A stretch of DNA of 64,000 nt from Herbidospora galbida (GTDB taxonomy: Bacteria > Actinomycetota > Actinomycetes > Streptosporangiales > Streptosporangiaceae): positions 62,001 through 126,000 of the forward strand of contig NZ_SZQA01000014.1 of the NCBI RefSeq assembly GCF_005233835.1, written 5' to 3'. The notes beneath the pieces are model-generated. The model saw only the letters and a list, made by a program, of their open reading frames with translations. It was not told the origin of the DNA and ran no database searches. The position numbers and the translations under genes are program-made. Positions 7,263-14,070 of this stretch are shown in pieces. The first letter of the stretch is position 1. The number at the start of each line of letters is the position of its first letter.

Positions 7263-8054
7263 ATGTACGATTCGACGGCCTGGACGCTGGTCGACGAGGG
7301 GTGGGGTCGCCGCGCGGTCGACTTCGCGACGCTCAGCGAACCGGGGAACTGCAGAGAATACGTCGCCATGCACCAGCACCTGGGCATCGGCGACGGCGAC
7401 CGGATACTCGACGTCGCCTGCGGCGCGGGGCTGGCCCTGGAGCTGGCCGCCGCCCGGGGCGCCCTGGGCGCGGGCATCGACGCCTCGGCCCGGCTGGTCG
7501 CGGTGGCCCGCGACCGCAACCCCGACGCGGACGTCCGCGTCGGCGACATGCACGACCTGCCCTGGGACGACGCGTCCTTCGACGCCGTCACCAGCTTCCG
7601 AGGGGTCTGGGGCACCACGCCGCTGGCGCTGCGGGAGATCCACCGGGTGCTGAAGCCCGGCGGCCGGCTCGGGCTGACCGTGTGGGGGCACATCAAGAAG
7701 TCGACGGGCGCGTGGGCGCTGGCGCCGTTCCGGCTGGCCACCGCGCCGAAGGTCGACAACCAGCGGAACATGGTCGCCCTCGGACGTCCCGGGGCCGGTG
7801 AGCAACTGCTGGAGACGTTCGGGTTCACCGACGTCCGGCGGGTGACCGTGCCGTTCGCGTGGGAGTTCGCCGACCCGGCGACCTACGCGCGGGCGCTGGC
7901 GGCGACCGGGCCGGCGTACGAGGCGATCCAGAACATCGGCGAGGACGCGTTCGCCGACGCCGCGATCAAGGGGGCCGAAGAACGGCTGCGCGCGGGCCTG
8001 CCGCTCCGGGCGGCCATCGACGTGGTCGGCTACCTGGCCCGGAAGGGGGCGTGA
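7263..8054 (+). CDS. Class I SAM-dependent methyltransferase
   Basis: A 263-residue methyltransferase of the Methyltransf_11 type. Motif I, which binds S-adenosylmethionine, is ILDVACGAGLALELA; the acidic residue after strand 2 is in GAGIDASARL; motif II is DLPWDDASFDAVTS; and motif III is VLKPGGRLGLTVWG. A ribosome site (ACAGGGGAA) lies directly before the ATG, 12 bases after the SARP gene. The stop overlaps the start of the AhpD-like gene, so translation is probably coupled. The substrate is unknown. The neighbouring NRPS-like cluster makes a natural-product or small-molecule acceptor plausible. Confidence 0.9.
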   Translation: MYDSTAWTLVDEGWGRRAVDFATLSEPGNCREYVAMHQHLGIGDGDRILDVACGAGLALELAAARGALGAGIDASARLVAVARDRNPDADVRVGDMHDLPWDDASFDAVTSFRGVWGTTPLALREIHRVLKPGGRLGLTVWGHIKKSTGAWALAPFRLATAPKVDNQRNMVALGRPGAGEQLLETFGFTDVRRVTVPFAWEFADPATYARALAATGPAYEAIQNIGEDAFADAAIKGAEERLRAGLPLRAAIDVVGYLARKGA

Positions 8055-8623
8055 TGAGCAGCTTCCTGGCCGACATGGAGGCCGACCCGGCGGAGGCCCA
8101 GGTCGACCTCGAAGAGCTCGGGTACGTCATGAACGCCACCCGCTTCTGGGGCTACCGGCCCGAGGTGGCCGAGGGCATCTTCGGCCTGGCCAGAGTGGTC
8201 ACGCGCGGGCTGCCGCTGCGGCTGCGGGGGATCATGGTGGCCGCCTGCGCGGTCGCCTACGGGAACTCCTACTGCGCGCTCGCGTGGGGCAACAAGCTCG
8301 CGTCCTGGGCCGACCCGGAGACGGCGGTCACGGTGCTCACCGGCGCCGACGAGGGCCTGACCGAGGACGAGCGCGCCGTCGCCGCGTGGACCCGCAAGGT
8401 CACCAGGCGGCCCCACGCGACGACCGAGGCCGACGTCGAGGAGCTGCGCGCCGCCGGGTTCACCGACGCGCAGATCTTCGACATCACGACGTTCGTGGCG
8501 CTCCGGATCGCGTTCTCGACCGTGAACGACGCGCTCGGCCTGCGGCCGGACGCCCAGCTGCGGACCACGACCCACGAGGGCATCCTCGCGGCGATCGACT
8601 TCGGCCGCCCGATCGCCGATTAG
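8054..8623 (+). CDS. AhpD/carboxymuconolactone decarboxylase-like protein lacking the CxxC motif
   Basis: A 189-residue protein whose ATG overlaps the methyltransferase stop by one base (TGATGA). The all-helical pattern and the segment IMVAACAVAYGNSYCALAWG match the AhpD/CMD superfamily, where this helix normally carries a CxxC pair and a following histidine. Here the first cysteine (in SYCALAW) is kept, but the second is alanine and the histidine position is occupied by lysine. A peroxidase of the classical AhpD type is therefore unlikely; it may act on another substrate or be non-catalytic. Its end overlaps by four bases the stop of the convergent C-domain gene, at 8620-8623. It probably belongs to the SARP-methyltransferase operon. 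Confidence 0.75.
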   Translation: MSSFLADMEADPAEAQVDLEELGYVMNATRFWGYRPEVAEGIFGLARVVTRGLPLRLRGIMVAACAVAYGNSYCALAWGNKLASWADPETAVTVLTGADEGLTEDERAVAAWTRKVTRRPHATTEADVEELRAAGFTDAQIFDITTFVALRIAFSTVNDALGLRPDAQLRTTTHEGILAAIDFGRPIAD

Positions 8624-9885
8624 ACGGCCCCGACCAGCCGGGTCTCGACACTGCGCAACATCGACTCCGCCGTGTCCCTGGGGAGGTAGGCGGTGTCGGC
8701 GATGAGGCTCAGCAGGCCGGTGCCCGCGTCGGCGCCGACCGTGAAGAACACCTTGAACCTGACGCCCGGCCAGGCGTTCTTCGTGTACGTCCTGGTCGTC
8801 GCCACCGACAGGTCGGTGTCGGGCGGGAGGGCCGGCCAGCCCGGGGCGGCCCGGCGGTCGTTGAAGAAGGCGTCCAGGTCGTGACCGCCGGCCTTCTCGC
8901 GCATCACGGTCATCGCGGCCGGGTCGTAGTGGGCGTTGCGGTAGGCCTGCAGGGCGGCCCGATGGGTGGTGCGGCAGAACTCGGCGAAGTCGTGTTCCGG
9001 ACGGTCGAGGACGATCAGGGCGTCCTGGCCGACCGTGCCGACCATCCCCCGGGTCCTGGCGTCGCGGCGGTTGCTGTGCACGAGCTGCATGACCACCCGC
9101 GAGCGTGCGCTGACCTCGGCCAGCACCTCGGCGCAGGCGGCCAGGATCACGCTGGTCGAACTGACCGTGAGCCGGTTGGACAGCCGGGTGGCGGCCACCG
9201 CCAGCGCGGGCGAGTCCATGATGACCTCGATGAACCGGGGGTCCTCCGGTTCGCCCGGCGGATGGTCGAAGACGTCGAGCGGGACGTCGGCGAGCACGTC
9301 GCGCCAGTAGGCGATCGACCGCGCCGACCGGGCCTGCCAGGCGTCGGAGGCCTCCAGCCCGGCCTGGTCGCGGGGCTGCCACGCCACCGGCGGCAGCGCG
9401 GCCCCCTTCAACAGGGCCTTCCACTCCTCGGCCAGCAGGGCGAGGGCCTGGTAGTCGACCGCCAGGTGGGTGAAGACGCAGGCCAGCGCGAACGGGCGGC
9501 CGTCCTTGAGCACGATCGCGCAGCGCAGCGGCCATTCCGCGCCGTGGTCGAAGACGATGTGCGCCATCTCGGCGGCCACCCGGTCGGCCACCCGGAGCCC
9601 GCGATCGGTGCCGGCCTCGACCAGCTCGACCTCCAGCACGCCGTCGCGGAAGACCCGCTGCCCGGCGTCGGAGAAGGTGGTCCGCAGCGCCTCGTGCCGC
9701 TCGATCAGCACCCGCAGCGCGTCGAGCACCACCGACAGGTCCTTGCGCCCGTAGACCGGGAACACGAAGGGGCAGTTCAGGTAGTTCTGGCTGGCGCCCA
9801 TCAGGTGGACGGCCCGCCACATCAGCCGCTGCCCCCAGGTCAGCGGCGCTTCCCCCTCGGTGGCGCCGGAGAACTCGATCTTCAT
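8620..9885 (-). CDS. Free-standing condensation (C) domain protein
   Basis: A 421-residue single-domain protein of the NRPS condensation/acyltransferase superfamily. Its N-terminal half has the substrate-donor pattern LTWGQRLMWRAVH and RHEALRTTF, and the active-site motif reads CVFTHLAVDYQAL. The canonical HHxxxDG has become THxxxDY, so the catalytic second histidine and the aspartate are kept while the first histidine and the glycine are lost. The C-terminal half contains the DFAEFCRTTHRAALQAY region typical of the second lobe. It overlaps the carrier-protein gene by four bases and is the last gene of the four-gene cluster. It may join the carrier-bound acyl or aminoacyl group to a free amine or alcohol; the substrate is unknown. 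Confidence 0.85.
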   Translation of the reverse strand: MKIEFSGATEGEAPLTWGQRLMWRAVHLMGASQNYLNCPFVFPVYGRKDLSVVLDALRVLIERHEALRTTFSDAGQRVFRDGVLEVELVEAGTDRGLRVADRVAAEMAHIVFDHGAEWPLRCAIVLKDGRPFALACVFTHLAVDYQALALLAEEWKALLKGAALPPVAWQPRDQAGLEASDAWQARSARSIAYWRDVLADVPLDVFDHPPGEPEDPRFIEVIMDSPALAVAATRLSNRLTVSSTSVILAACAEVLAEVSARSRVVMQLVHSNRRDARTRGMVGTVGQDALIVLDRPEHDFAEFCRTTHRAALQAYRNAHYDPAAMTVMREKAGGHDLDAFFNDRRAAPGWPALPPDTDLSVATTRTYTKNAWPGVRFKVFFTVGADAGTGLLSLIADTAYLPRDTAESMLRSVETRLVGAV

Positions 9886-10118
9886 TTCAGCGCCGCGACG
9901 AGGGTGTCGACGTCCTCGAACGACGACAGGTCGCCGCTGAGGTCGAACTCCAGGCCGAAGACGTCCTCGATGGTGTCGATCAGGCTGATCCGGGCCAGCG
10001 ACGTCAGCCCCAGCGCCGACAGTGTGTGCCGCCCGGCCAGCACCTCGTCGGAACTGATCACGCCGCCGGAGGCGTCCGCGATCATGCCGGCCAGCCGGAC
10101 CCTGAGCTCATCGGTCAT
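9882..10118 (-). CDS. Free-standing acyl/peptidyl carrier protein
   Basis: A 78-residue discrete carrier protein. The phosphopantetheine attachment motif is LSALGLTSLARISL, with serine 40 as the expected modification site, followed by the helix III pattern FEDVDTLVAAL. It is encoded between the C-A-T protein and the free C domain, overlapping both genes by four bases, so the stoichiometry is likely fixed by coupled translation. The T domain of its upstream neighbour has no serine, so this small protein is probably the only functional carrier of the cluster. It could be loaded by the free AMP ligase encoded first in the operon. Confidence 0.93.
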   Translation of the reverse strand: MTDELRVRLAGMIADASGGVISSDEVLAGRHTLSALGLTSLARISLIDTIEDVFGLEFDLSGDLSSFEDVDTLVAALK

Positions 10119-12562
10119 GCCATCTCCAGATCACGCAGTTGCTCGACGGCCAGTGCCAGCCCGGCCACGGTGGGCCGTTCGAAGACCGTCTTCATCGGTA
10201 CGTCCAACTCCAGCGCCTCCCGCAGCCGCGAGGCCACCCGCTCGGCCAGCAGCGCATGCCCGCCGAGCGCGAAGAAGTCGTCGAAGACGCCGACCTCCGC
10301 CAGCCCGAGCACCTCGGCCCACACGCCGGCGACCAGCGTCTCGGTGTCGGTGCGGGGCTCGACGAACTCGGCAGCGCGCACGGGTGCCGGGTCGTCCGTC
10401 CGGCCGAGGAACTCGATGGTGCCGTCGTCGCGGTGACGGGCCAGGTCGCCGGTCCGGAAGAGCCGGTCGTCCGGCCCTCCGAACGGGTCTTTCACGAACC
10501 GTTCGGCGGTCAGCTCGGGCTGCCATCGATAGCCGGCGGCCACCCCCGCGCCGCCGACGCACAGCTCACCCGGCGCCCCGACCGGCACCAGCCGGAGCTT
10601 CTCGTCGAGCAGGCGGACGACGGTGTTGGCGATCGGCCGCCCGATGGAGCCGTCTTCGGAGAGCATGCTTGCGATGGTCGTCTCGGCCGATCCGTAGAGG
10701 CTGACCACGCGGTCGAACCGCTGCCCGAGTTCCGGCGTCGGCGAGGGTGTGGCCGGTGCGTACGTCACCCCCTGCGCCTCGGCGGGCTCGGCGAGGGCCC
10801 CCGTTCCCGCGATGACCACCCGGCCGCCGGTGATCAGCGGCAGGTAGAACTCCAGCGCCGAGATGTCGACCGCCGGTGAGGTGAGCGCGAGCAACCGGTC
10901 GTCCGGCCCCGGCCCGAGCAGGTCCCGCATCGACAGCAGCAGGTTCGCCAGGTTCCCGTGGGTGACCTCGACGCCCGTCGGCCGCCCGGCCGGGCCCGAG
11001 GTGTAGACGACGTAGGCGAGGTCGTCGGGCGCGATCAGCCGCAGATAGCCCTCGTGGTCGTCGGTACGCGCGTCGGTCAGCACCAGCTTCGGCTGCGCGT
11101 CCGCCACGATCATCTCGATCCACTCGGCCGGATGGCCGGGATCCAGCGGCAGGTACGCCGCCCCCGTCCGCTGCACCGCCAGCAGCGCGATCAGCAGGTC
11201 GTCGGAGCGGGGGATCTTCAACCCCACGAGGTCGCCGGGGCCGATCCCGGCCCGCCGCAGCCGTCCGGCCAGCCGCCCGGCGGCCATGTCGAGTTCGGCG
11301 TAGGTCAGCGTCCGGTCGTCGTGGCGGACCGCGACCGCGTGCGGGGCCTTCCGCACCTGGGCCGCGAACAGCTCGGGCAGCGTGACCGGCGGGTGGTCGA
11401 CGGCGGTGTCGTTCCAGGTGACGAGCAGCTTCTCCCGGTCGGCGGCCGGGATGACGTCGAGTTCGCCGACGGCCACCCCGGGCTCGGCGGCGGCGTGCGC
11501 GAGGAGCGTGCCCAGCGCGTCCCAGAACCGGACGACCGTCTCCCGGTCGAGCGCCTCGGGGTTGAACCGCAGCCAGGTGCCGAGCCCGTCGACCACCTGG
11601 AGGTGCAGCGGGCCGCGCACCTCTCCGGCGAACATCGCGTGCTCGACCGTGACGTCGAGGCCGGGGAAGTCCGGCGGGTTCCCGGCGCGGCGGTAGCTCA
11701 GCGAGACGGGGGTCGACGGCGTACGCGACGGCCGGGCCGTGCGGTCGAGGCCGCGGACCTGGGCCCGCACCTCCCGCGCGAAGTCGTCGAAGGGCAGCGC
11801 GTCACGCGGCCAGGTGATGACCGGCAGCTCGTTGACGTAGGGGCCGATGCGGTCGCGGGTCTCGCGCCCGCGCGTGGTCACGTCGACCAGGACGGCGGGG
11901 GTCTCGGTCCCGTACCGGAACAGCAGGGCGTGGACGCCCGCCAGCAGCGCCTCGAACGTCGTCACCCCGGCCGCCTCCGCGACGGCGGCGGCCGACGCGA
12001 GCACCGCGGCGTCGCCCCTGATCTGCTCCCCCGGCCCGAACCGGTCAGACCGGCGCTGACCGGGCAGCGTGAACCCGACCGGGGGGACGTCGAGCGGCGT
12101 CGGAGCCGGCGGCTCGAAGTCGACCGGCTCCCGTGACGCCCTCGATTCGCCGTAGTGGCGGGCGAGGTCGCGTACGAGGACGTCTTGGGACAGCCCGTCG
12201 AACACCAGATGGTGGGCCACGAAGAGCAGCAGGTGGCGGCCCTCGCCGGCGGGCGCGAGCGTGAAGCGCGCGAGCGGGCCGTGGTCGAGGTCGAAGGGCC
12301 GCGCGACCTCGGCGGCGACGAACTCGGGCGTCGCCTCGGCGGTCACCGACACCGTCGGAGCCGGCCCTTCGACGACATCGCCCGACTCGGTCACCAGCGT
12401 CGACAGCACCCGGTGCCGGGCCACCACTGCGGCGCAGGCCGCGAGCAGGGCGGGCACGTCGAGGTCGCCGTCGAACCAGATCGAGACCGGGAGGTGGTAG
12501 GCGGTCCCGGCCCCGAGCCGGGCGGCGGTCCACATGCCCTGCTGCATGGGAGAGGCCTTCAT
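10115..12562 (-). CDS. NRPS-like C-A-T protein with degenerate A domain and serine-less T domain
   Basis: The start is the ATG at 12562 (MKASPMQQGMW), sharing a four-base ATGA overlap with the AMP ligase stop; length 815 residues. The C domain (residues 1 to about 385) has an intact HHLVFDG motif at residues 117-123. The adenylation domain follows, but it is damaged in order: core A3 reads YTSGPAGRPTGV, with threonine where the conserved lysine should be; A5 is LYGSAETT; A7 RTGDLAR is kept; and after FLGRTDD the whole small C-terminal subdomain with the catalytic lysine is missing. The thiolation domain ends FFALGGHALL: alanine 770 (codon GCG at 10253-10255) replaces the phosphopantetheine serine. 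The frame is open throughout, so this is not a simple pseudogene. Probably only the C domain works and the rest is structural. Confidence 0.9.
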   Translation of the reverse strand: MKASPMQQGMWTAARLGAGTAYHLPVSIWFDGDLDVPALLAACAAVVARHRVLSTLVTESGDVVEGPAPTVSVTAEATPEFVAAEVARPFDLDHGPLARFTLAPAGEGRHLLLFVAHHLVFDGLSQDVLVRDLARHYGESRASREPVDFEPPAPTPLDVPPVGFTLPGQRRSDRFGPGEQIRGDAAVLASAAAVAEAAGVTTFEALLAGVHALLFRYGTETPAVLVDVTTRGRETRDRIGPYVNELPVITWPRDALPFDDFAREVRAQVRGLDRTARPSRTPSTPVSLSYRRAGNPPDFPGLDVTVEHAMFAGEVRGPLHLQVVDGLGTWLRFNPEALDRETVVRFWDALGTLLAHAAAEPGVAVGELDVIPAADREKLLVTWNDTAVDHPPVTLPELFAAQVRKAPHAVAVRHDDRTLTYAELDMAAGRLAGRLRRAGIGPGDLVGLKIPRSDDLLIALLAVQRTGAAYLPLDPGHPAEWIEMIVADAQPKLVLTDARTDDHEGYLRLIAPDDLAYVVYTSGPAGRPTGVEVTHGNLANLLLSMRDLLGPGPDDRLLALTSPAVDISALEFYLPLITGGRVVIAGTGALAEPAEAQGVTYAPATPSPTPELGQRFDRVVSLYGSAETTIASMLSEDGSIGRPIANTVVRLLDEKLRLVPVGAPGELCVGGAGVAAGYRWQPELTAERFVKDPFGGPDDRLFRTGDLARHRDDGTIEFLGRTDDPAPVRAAEFVEPRTDTETLVAGVWAEVLGLAEVGVFDDFFALGGHALLAERVASRLREALELDVPMKTVFERPTVAGLALAVEQLRDLEMA

Positions 12563-14070
12563 CGTGTCCGTCCCGGAGGCGTGTGGGCCGGCCCGATCAG
12601 GTCGAGCAGGCGGGGCTTCACCACCTTGCCGAGGTGGTTCTTGGGCAGTTCGGCCACGAACACCAGCCGGCTGGGGAGCTCGTGCGGCGCGAGCCGGTCG
12701 AGCAGGAAGGCGCGCAGTCCGGCGGGCGTCACGGGGGCGCGGGTCACCACCGCCGCCCCGGTCACCCGGCCGAGCACCGGGTGCGGCAGGCCGGCCACGG
12801 CCGCCTCGGCGACCGAGGGGTGTTCGTGCAGCGCCGCCTCGACCTGGAGCGTCGACACCTTGTGCCCGCCCGACTCGATGACGTCGCCCTCGCGGTCGAC
12901 CAGGTAGAGGTAGCCGTCGTCGTCGAGATAGCCCAGGTCGCCCATGCGCACCCAGCCGTCGCGGAACACCCGGTCGGTGGCCTGCCGGTCGCCGTAGTAG
13001 ACGCGGCTCCCGGCGGGGGAGCGCAGCCAGATCTCGCCGGTCTCCCCCGGCTTCACCGTCTCGCCGTCGGGCCCCGAGATCCGCAGGTCGCCGCCCTGCG
13101 TGGGGCGGCCGACCGAGGCGGGCCGGGCCGGGTCGACGATCATCACCGTGTGCGCGGGCGCGGCCTCGGTCGAGGTGTAGTAATTGACGATCGTCGCATT
13201 CGGGAACGCCTTGGCCATCCCGGCCGCCACGCACGGCGGCAGGTTCGCGGCCGTCGAGCCGAGCAGCCTGACCGAGCTGAAGTCGTGCCGTTCGTGCACG
13301 CCCGCGTTGAGCAGCTGGATCGCGTGCGACGGGACCACGAACACCGTGCCCACCCGGTGGGTCTCGATGAGCCTGGCGAAGCGCCCCGGCGTGAACATCG
13401 GTGTCGTCAGCGCGGCCGGGTGGGCGTCGAGGGCGTTGACCAACATGTTCTGCCCGGCGTTGGTGCCGATCGGGAAGGCGTGCAGGAAGTGCCGGGAATG
13501 GGCGAGCCGGCGATGGCGGGGATCGGTGCCGAAGGCCAGGTTGGCGTGGGTCGCGCCGACGCCCTTGGCCCGGCCGGTCGTGCCGGAGGTGTAGATGATC
13601 TGGGCCAGCTTCTCGGGCCCGAGTCCCCGCCCCATGGGGGCGGTGTCGTTCGCGGCCAGTTCGGCCGAGGTCTCTTTGGAGATCGTCTGTACGACGCCGC
13701 AGTCGGCCATCGCGTGGTCGATCTCCGCGGGGGCTAATCGCTCCGAGAGCGGCACCGCCACACCGCCCGCCCGGAGCACCCCGCACCAGGCGACCGCGTA
13801 GTCGATCCAGTCGCGCTCCCCGAAGACGAGCGCCACCCGGTCGCCGGGCGACAGCCCCCGCTCGACGAGTGACCGCGCCGTCGCGTCGGCCCGCCGGTCC
13901 CAGTCGCCGAACGTGATCTCCCCGACGTCGGCCACCACGATCGCCGTCTTCTCGGCCTGCTCGGCGGCCCGGCGGGCGAGCAGGTCGGGAAGCGTGAGGT
14001 GTCGGTCAACCCGCACGGCCACCACCGTTTCGAAATATTTCGAGCCACCATGAACCCGGTCAGGGGGCAC
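12559..14070 (-). CDS. AMP-dependent acyl ligase (ANL superfamily)
   Basis: A protein of up to 503 residues, first of the four-gene cluster. It is a complete ANL enzyme: ATP loop IIYTSGTTGRAKGV, the A5-like NYYTSTEAAP, the ribose motif RMGDLGYLDDDGYLYLVDR, the hinge and small-domain motif SGGHKVSTLQVEAAL, and the catalytic lysine in NHLGKVVK. It should activate a carboxylic acid as the adenylate and transfer it to CoA or to a carrier protein, most likely the discrete carrier in the same operon. The frame opens at GTG 14070, but GTG codons 15-18 codons later, just before RVDRHLTLPDLL, are equally credible starts. It lies 113 bases after the TetR gene on the same strand. Confidence 0.9.
   Translation of the reverse strand: MPPDRVHGGSKYFETVVAVRVDRHLTLPDLLARRAAEQAEKTAIVVADVGEITFGDWDRRADATARSLVERGLSPGDRVALVFGERDWIDYAVAWCGVLRAGGVAVPLSERLAPAEIDHAMADCGVVQTISKETSAELAANDTAPMGRGLGPEKLAQIIYTSGTTGRAKGVGATHANLAFGTDPRHRRLAHSRHFLHAFPIGTNAGQNMLVNALDAHPAALTTPMFTPGRFARLIETHRVGTVFVVPSHAIQLLNAGVHERHDFSSVRLLGSTAANLPPCVAAGMAKAFPNATIVNYYTSTEAAPAHTVMIVDPARPASVGRPTQGGDLRISGPDGETVKPGETGEIWLRSPAGSRVYYGDRQATDRVFRDGWVRMGDLGYLDDDGYLYLVDREGDVIESGGHKVSTLQVEAALHEHPSVAEAAVAGLPHPVLGRVTGAAVVTRAPVTPAGLRAFLLDRLAPHELPSRLVFVAELPKNHLGKVVKPRLLDLIGPAHTPPGRTR

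Follow-up and report, generated by a model that had tools for sequence, protein, structure and literature searches.

A nonribosomal peptide cluster of Herbidospora in probable decay, with its discrete ligase, carrier and condensation protein best kept

The window analysed here, 64,000 nucleotides of Herbidospora galbida contig NZ_SZQA01000014.1 (positions 62,001 to 126,000), carries four minus-strand genes (14070-8620) that encode a ligase, a synthetase, a carrier and a condensation (C) protein; each adjacent pair shares an ATGA. We think it probable, at roughly two chances in three, that the four genes represent, in Herbidospora, a decaying Streptosporangiaceae nonribosomal peptide cluster whose best-kept part is the discrete set of ligase, carrier and C protein. 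Selection best preserves this set, as its intactness and its ratios of nonsynonymous to synonymous substitution rates (dN/dS, omega) show. An earlier note, made from the letters of the window, had described four tightly overlapping genes with an open synthetase frame, and a complete AMP ligase and serine-bearing discrete carrier beside the synthetase; coordinates and ATGA overlaps bear out the former, Pfam matches and motifs the latter (Table 1).

The eroded synthetase across Herbidospora

What has the synthetase lost? Relatives hold a fuller form of the cluster: ligase, a first nonribosomal peptide synthetase (NRPS1; C-A-T-C-A-T, where A and T are adenylation and carrier domains), a second one (NRPS2; C-A-T-TE-MFS, with thioesterase and transporter parts), carrier and C protein. 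The window has the orthologues of the ligase, C1-A1, T2, the carrier and the C protein in this same order; between A1 and T2 it lacks the relatives' A1 small subdomain, T1, C2 and A2. What H. galbida retains is C1, A1's large half and a T2 without its serine. Pfam reports Condensation, AMP-binding and PP-binding domains without AMP-binding_C, which agrees with the earlier note that the small subdomain with the catalytic lysine is gone; its two point changes, A3 lysine to threonine (Thr529) and GGHS serine to alanine (Ala770), are both found, the second at exactly the codon that it gave. A functional C-A-T module would have the A3 lysine, the C-terminal subdomain and the GGHS serine, and this protein has none of them. 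Beyond that account, the A1 large subdomain is short of ~28 residues through two window-specific deletions, of 6 and 22.

The locus, with the same genes flanking it, is present in 7/7 Herbidospora genomes, and is therefore neither chance nor a sequencing slip; a single bad allele or slip was also rejected because the A1 small subdomain is absent in 6/6 remnants. Losses of catalytic parts are lineage-specific: T2 is gone in four other species, and C1 has suffered in five of the seven: it is wholly or mostly deleted in G004, G005 and G006 and has a changed His in G001 and G002. No TE module is left at the locus in the six other species or the window. By parsimony, NRPS2, the A1 small subdomain and T1 would have been lost ahead of the species split; comparison shows that each species then shed more of NRPS1, mostly through deletions that left the frame intact. 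The remnants of H. cretacea and H. mongoliensis continue in frame into the serine-bearing carrier, and read-through would yield C...T proteins. The earlier note had seen the A-T region as a scaffold, a role we rejected because the region is altered or gone in every relative; its other suggestion, that the ligase loads the carrier and a C domain makes the bond, is retained below in conditional form.

Table 1. Features of the cluster and of the converging frame, in window coordinates
Feature	Position	Strand	Basis
Discrete AMP-forming acyl/aryl ligase, 503 aa	12559..14070	-	Pfam AMP-binding + AMP-binding_C
ATGA overlap ligase/synthetase	12559..12562	-	sequence
Remnant of the eroded synthetase (815 aa): C1, large subdomain of A1, T2	10115..12562	-	Pfam + comparison with relatives
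C1 domain, residues ~1-390, intact HHLVFDG at 12194-12214	11393..12562	-	Pfam, alignment, motif
A1 remnant, residues ~395-722, large subdomain only, two internal deletions	10397..11380	-	alignment
A3 motif lysine position = Thr529 (ACG), motif TSGPAGRPTGV	10976..10978	-	sequence
T2 domain, residues ~733-815, fused to A1	10118..10366	-	comparison with relatives
GGHA codon GCG = Ala770, replacing phosphopantetheine serine	10253..10255	-	sequence
ATGA overlap synthetase/carrier	10115..10118	-	sequence
78-aa discrete carrier protein; GLTSL serine (Ser40) at 9999-10001	9882..10118	-	Pfam, motif
ATGA overlap carrier/C protein	9882..9885	-	sequence
421-aa discrete condensation protein; THLAVDY at 9451-9471	8620..9885	-	Pfam, motif
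190-aa open frame, converging on C gene	8051-8623	+	window

Selection on the discrete proteins and the remnant

The ligase has intact motifs (YTSGTTGRAKGV, GDLGYLDDDGYLYLVDRE and KNHLGKVVK) and orthologues at 84-92% in four other Herbidospora; the gene is truncated in one further species, and another has no intact copy. The carrier is intact in 7/7. In the C protein, His140 and Asp144 are invariant in 33/33 aligned proteins, within a motif that reads (S/T)HLAVD(F/Y) in close orthologues outside Herbidospora and TH(L)(A/S)VDY inside it; none of 35 orthologues has an internal stop. Its predicted structure (mean pLDDT 91) is an ordinary C-domain fold, and in a tree of 12 C domains the discrete C proteins form a separate branch (support 100/99).

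Under GY+F3X4, omega in Herbidospora is 0.050 for the carrier (7 species), 0.092 for the ligase (5) and 0.103 for the C protein (7); the values for four neighbouring genes span 0.050-0.102. Intact clusters have 0.100 for the C protein and 0.106 for the carrier; the ligase has no such value, two loci alone having passed the filter. (The intact set omits L060, L072 and L079 as duplicate genomes, and L059, L069/L086 and L073 are not included.) The remnant segments, each estimated from the species that have it, give 0.133 for C1 (4 species), 0.125 for A1 (6), 0.201 for C2, which is lost in the window but usable in four species, and 0.350 for T2 (3); their intact counterparts give 0.125 for C1, 0.080 for A1 and 0.095 for C2. 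The 5-95% ranges from 15 replicates separate A1 and C2 from the intact ranges and overlap for C1 (those of the carrier and T2 reached 1.0 and were not used), while 18 neutral simulations gave 0.40-0.86, above all three segments. The remnant thus gives a mixed picture, with relaxation in A1 and C2 but not in C1, and neutrality in none of the three as yet. A Nei-Gojobori estimate agrees: dN/dS is 0.39-0.56 over the segments of the remnant and 0.20-0.37 for the others, with a bias from third-position GC. The main doubt about a decaying cluster arises here: an unrelaxed C1, and C1, A1 and C2 all below neutral values, argue against the remnant being plain junk.

Possible functions and alternative readings

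The leftover parts of the decaying cluster may still be functional. The ligase would activate a carboxylic acid and then likely load the serine arm of the carrier; the C protein, with its non-canonical (S/T)HxxxD(F/Y) site, could pass the acyl group on to an amine or alcohol that diffuses freely. Why, then, would the remnant stay open? Presumably because the last bases of the remnant overlap the start of the carrier gene, and those of the carrier gene the start of the C gene: a frameshift in the remnant would hinder translation of both, and no Shine-Dalgarno-like stretch is present in the 25 bases preceding the C protein start in the window. We tentatively propose, as a possibility with the odds against it, that repeated frame-preserving erosion freed the ligase-carrier-C set, and finally the C protein alone, for a new, independent acyl-transfer role, with the overlaps acting as a ratchet that favours in-frame deletions.

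The cluster is not alone in its genome: the idea that the window holds the sole cluster with such a ligase was rejected upon finding two more ligase-family loci, on C95 and C106. The first (L027; G000:C95:174000-193900) encodes ligase, A-less C–T, C-A-T-TE-MFS, carrier and C protein, and fits by its domains nrps-6 as far as it is described in part of Komaki et al. (PMC4599437). At eight Microbispora loci (L088-L094, L096), a TE-MFS protein is followed by ligase, C–T, T and C in a row, with the C + T piece present in seven and less clear in L094. A-less C-T proteins in which HHxxxDG and GGHS are both intact lie beside a discrete ligase, carrier and C protein in L027, L088, L096 and L097 (by Pfam in L088 only), a layout that recurs in both genera. 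The third H. galbida locus (L095:4049-7057; G000:C106) combines ligase, T and C within a single 1003-aa frame adjoining a C-A-T gene, a layout of A/T-C by which it is probably nrps-2 of the same source. In the 12-domain tree its C domain (HHLVFDG) belongs to the in-line type; L095 therefore supports ligase-to-T-to-C traffic in the family, not the discrete C protein itself. As a side observation, TE is followed by an MFS transporter domain in a single C-A-T-TE-MFS frame in L083:1661-7681 (minus), and also in L027 and L028; Microbispora loci have matches in the same order. Fusion of an exporter to the module that releases the chain seems characteristic of the family.

These A-less paralogues indicate that C-T modules with a separate ligase to serve them do occur in the family, and raise an alternative: the remnant could be a working, non-canonical synthetase in which the free carrier hands its acyl group to C1, and completion falls to the discrete C protein or to a module from another cluster. 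The HHLVFDG motif of the window C1 and the intact-like dN/dS of C1 as a whole would fit, and there is precedent for a dead A domain being served in trans, in albicidin, ramoplanin and enduracidin (PMC8949500, in part). A line of that kind would need a loadable T adjoining the dead A; here, T2 lacks its serine or is gone, C1 is damaged or missing in most species, and no TE module remains. We regard a working synthetase as unlikely.

Does the C protein persist where the assembly line is gone? It is present in 14/15 Microbispora genomes, and in 7 of these 14 no carrier was found upstream of it (G065, G066, G068, G071, G072, G073 and G067, the last of which retains the ligase and first synthetase); the G076 carrier has Tyr at the serine position. 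At eight loci with ~10 kb or more of upstream sequence (L062, L065, L076, L077, L081, L082, L084, L085; some genomes occur twice among them), neither a ligase (300 bits) nor a family synthetase was found upstream on the same strand. A ligase at least 70% identical to that of the window occurs in 1/15 genomes (G067); in all others except G070 the ligases present are 59-69% identical and lie at other loci. Near the C protein in L062, L065, L077 and L084, carrier, ligase and synthetase are absent; in L062, where neighbours were annotated, it is surrounded by LysE, sulfotransferase and MerR/TipAS genes, unlike in Herbidospora. Elsewhere, L064 (Nonomuraea deserti) has the first synthetase with the second reduced to its MFS part, and L073 (Microbispora corallina) has the first synthetase and no TE or MFS part within 10 kb; by their gene content both are an apparent early stage of the same loss.

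Stepwise loss in two genera, the missing Microbispora carriers and the G076 Tyr would also be expected if decay were complete, the carrier and C protein being merely the last genes to go and having no present role. This is less likely still: the Microbispora C protein keeps its catalytic residues and has an omega of 0.082 (nine genes, six from loci without a carrier and three with), and the low carrier omega in Herbidospora and the stop-free C orthologues speak against it too. That the A-T deletions are adaptive, turning the module into the A-less C-T type of the paralogues, is very improbable: the shared ligase, C-T, T, C layout and the in-frame H. cretacea and H. mongoliensis remnants agree with it, but the window has a dead T2, no two species share the pattern and in five of the seven C1 is damaged or lost.

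Known systems and neighbouring genes

Open-access literature yielded no description of decay of this cluster; the papers below are compared from parts of their texts. Among the closest known systems is Herbidospora nrps-13 (Komaki et al., 2015; PMC4599437). The OaaA/OaaACP/OaaC fatty-acid-amide trio (PMC13142362) resembles the window in encoding a free-standing ligase, carrier and C protein together, the last with a non-canonical motif that retains the second His and the Asp; its motif is (D/H)HxxxDS, a type from which THLAVDY of the (S/T)HxxxD(F/Y) type departs, and, unlike it, the window trio belongs to a peptide synthetase cluster. The pyrrolamide (congocidine) system (PMC4047045) is alike by layout, with modular Cgc18, proposed to act iteratively, the discrete PCP Cgc19 and C proteins Cgc2 and Cgc16. 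The albicidin, ramoplanin and enduracidin synthetases (PMC8949500) share a non-functional A domain in line, with a stand-alone [A-T] module elsewhere; their lines still work, whereas in Herbidospora T is serine-less or gone and TE absent. The C protein model has the same fold as the chain-release condensation domain of enacyloxin synthase (PDB 6cgo; Foldseek rank 13, TM 0.76 by query, 22% identity), which releases a polyketide chain; a close relation in sequence is not shown (E 5e-10).

Seven near relatives thus offer a step-by-step series in which a modular synthetase is dismantled while three small accessory proteins stay selected. Two questions become testable: what the C protein does on its own, with no assembly line, and whether gene overlaps steer which deletions survive. 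For genome mining, the series urges caution, as a remnant can be listed as a strain-specific cluster whose predicted peptide probably cannot be made. If true, erosion would be a route from assembly lines to minimal acyl-amide or ester synthases.

Flanking genes were rejected as cluster members: 13 flanking frames of the window searched against 26 loci of other genera (E 1e-8; 5-21 kb each) gave a single weak methyltransferase match, in L073, and the TetR/MFS and methyltransferase/BTAD genes therefore look like neighbours in Herbidospora only. In H. mongoliensis (L026:4290-7687), ~3.4 kb separates TetR from the ligase, compared with ~0.1 kb in the window. The 190-aa frame that converges on the C gene has no Pfam match at 1e-5; we take it to resemble AhpD.
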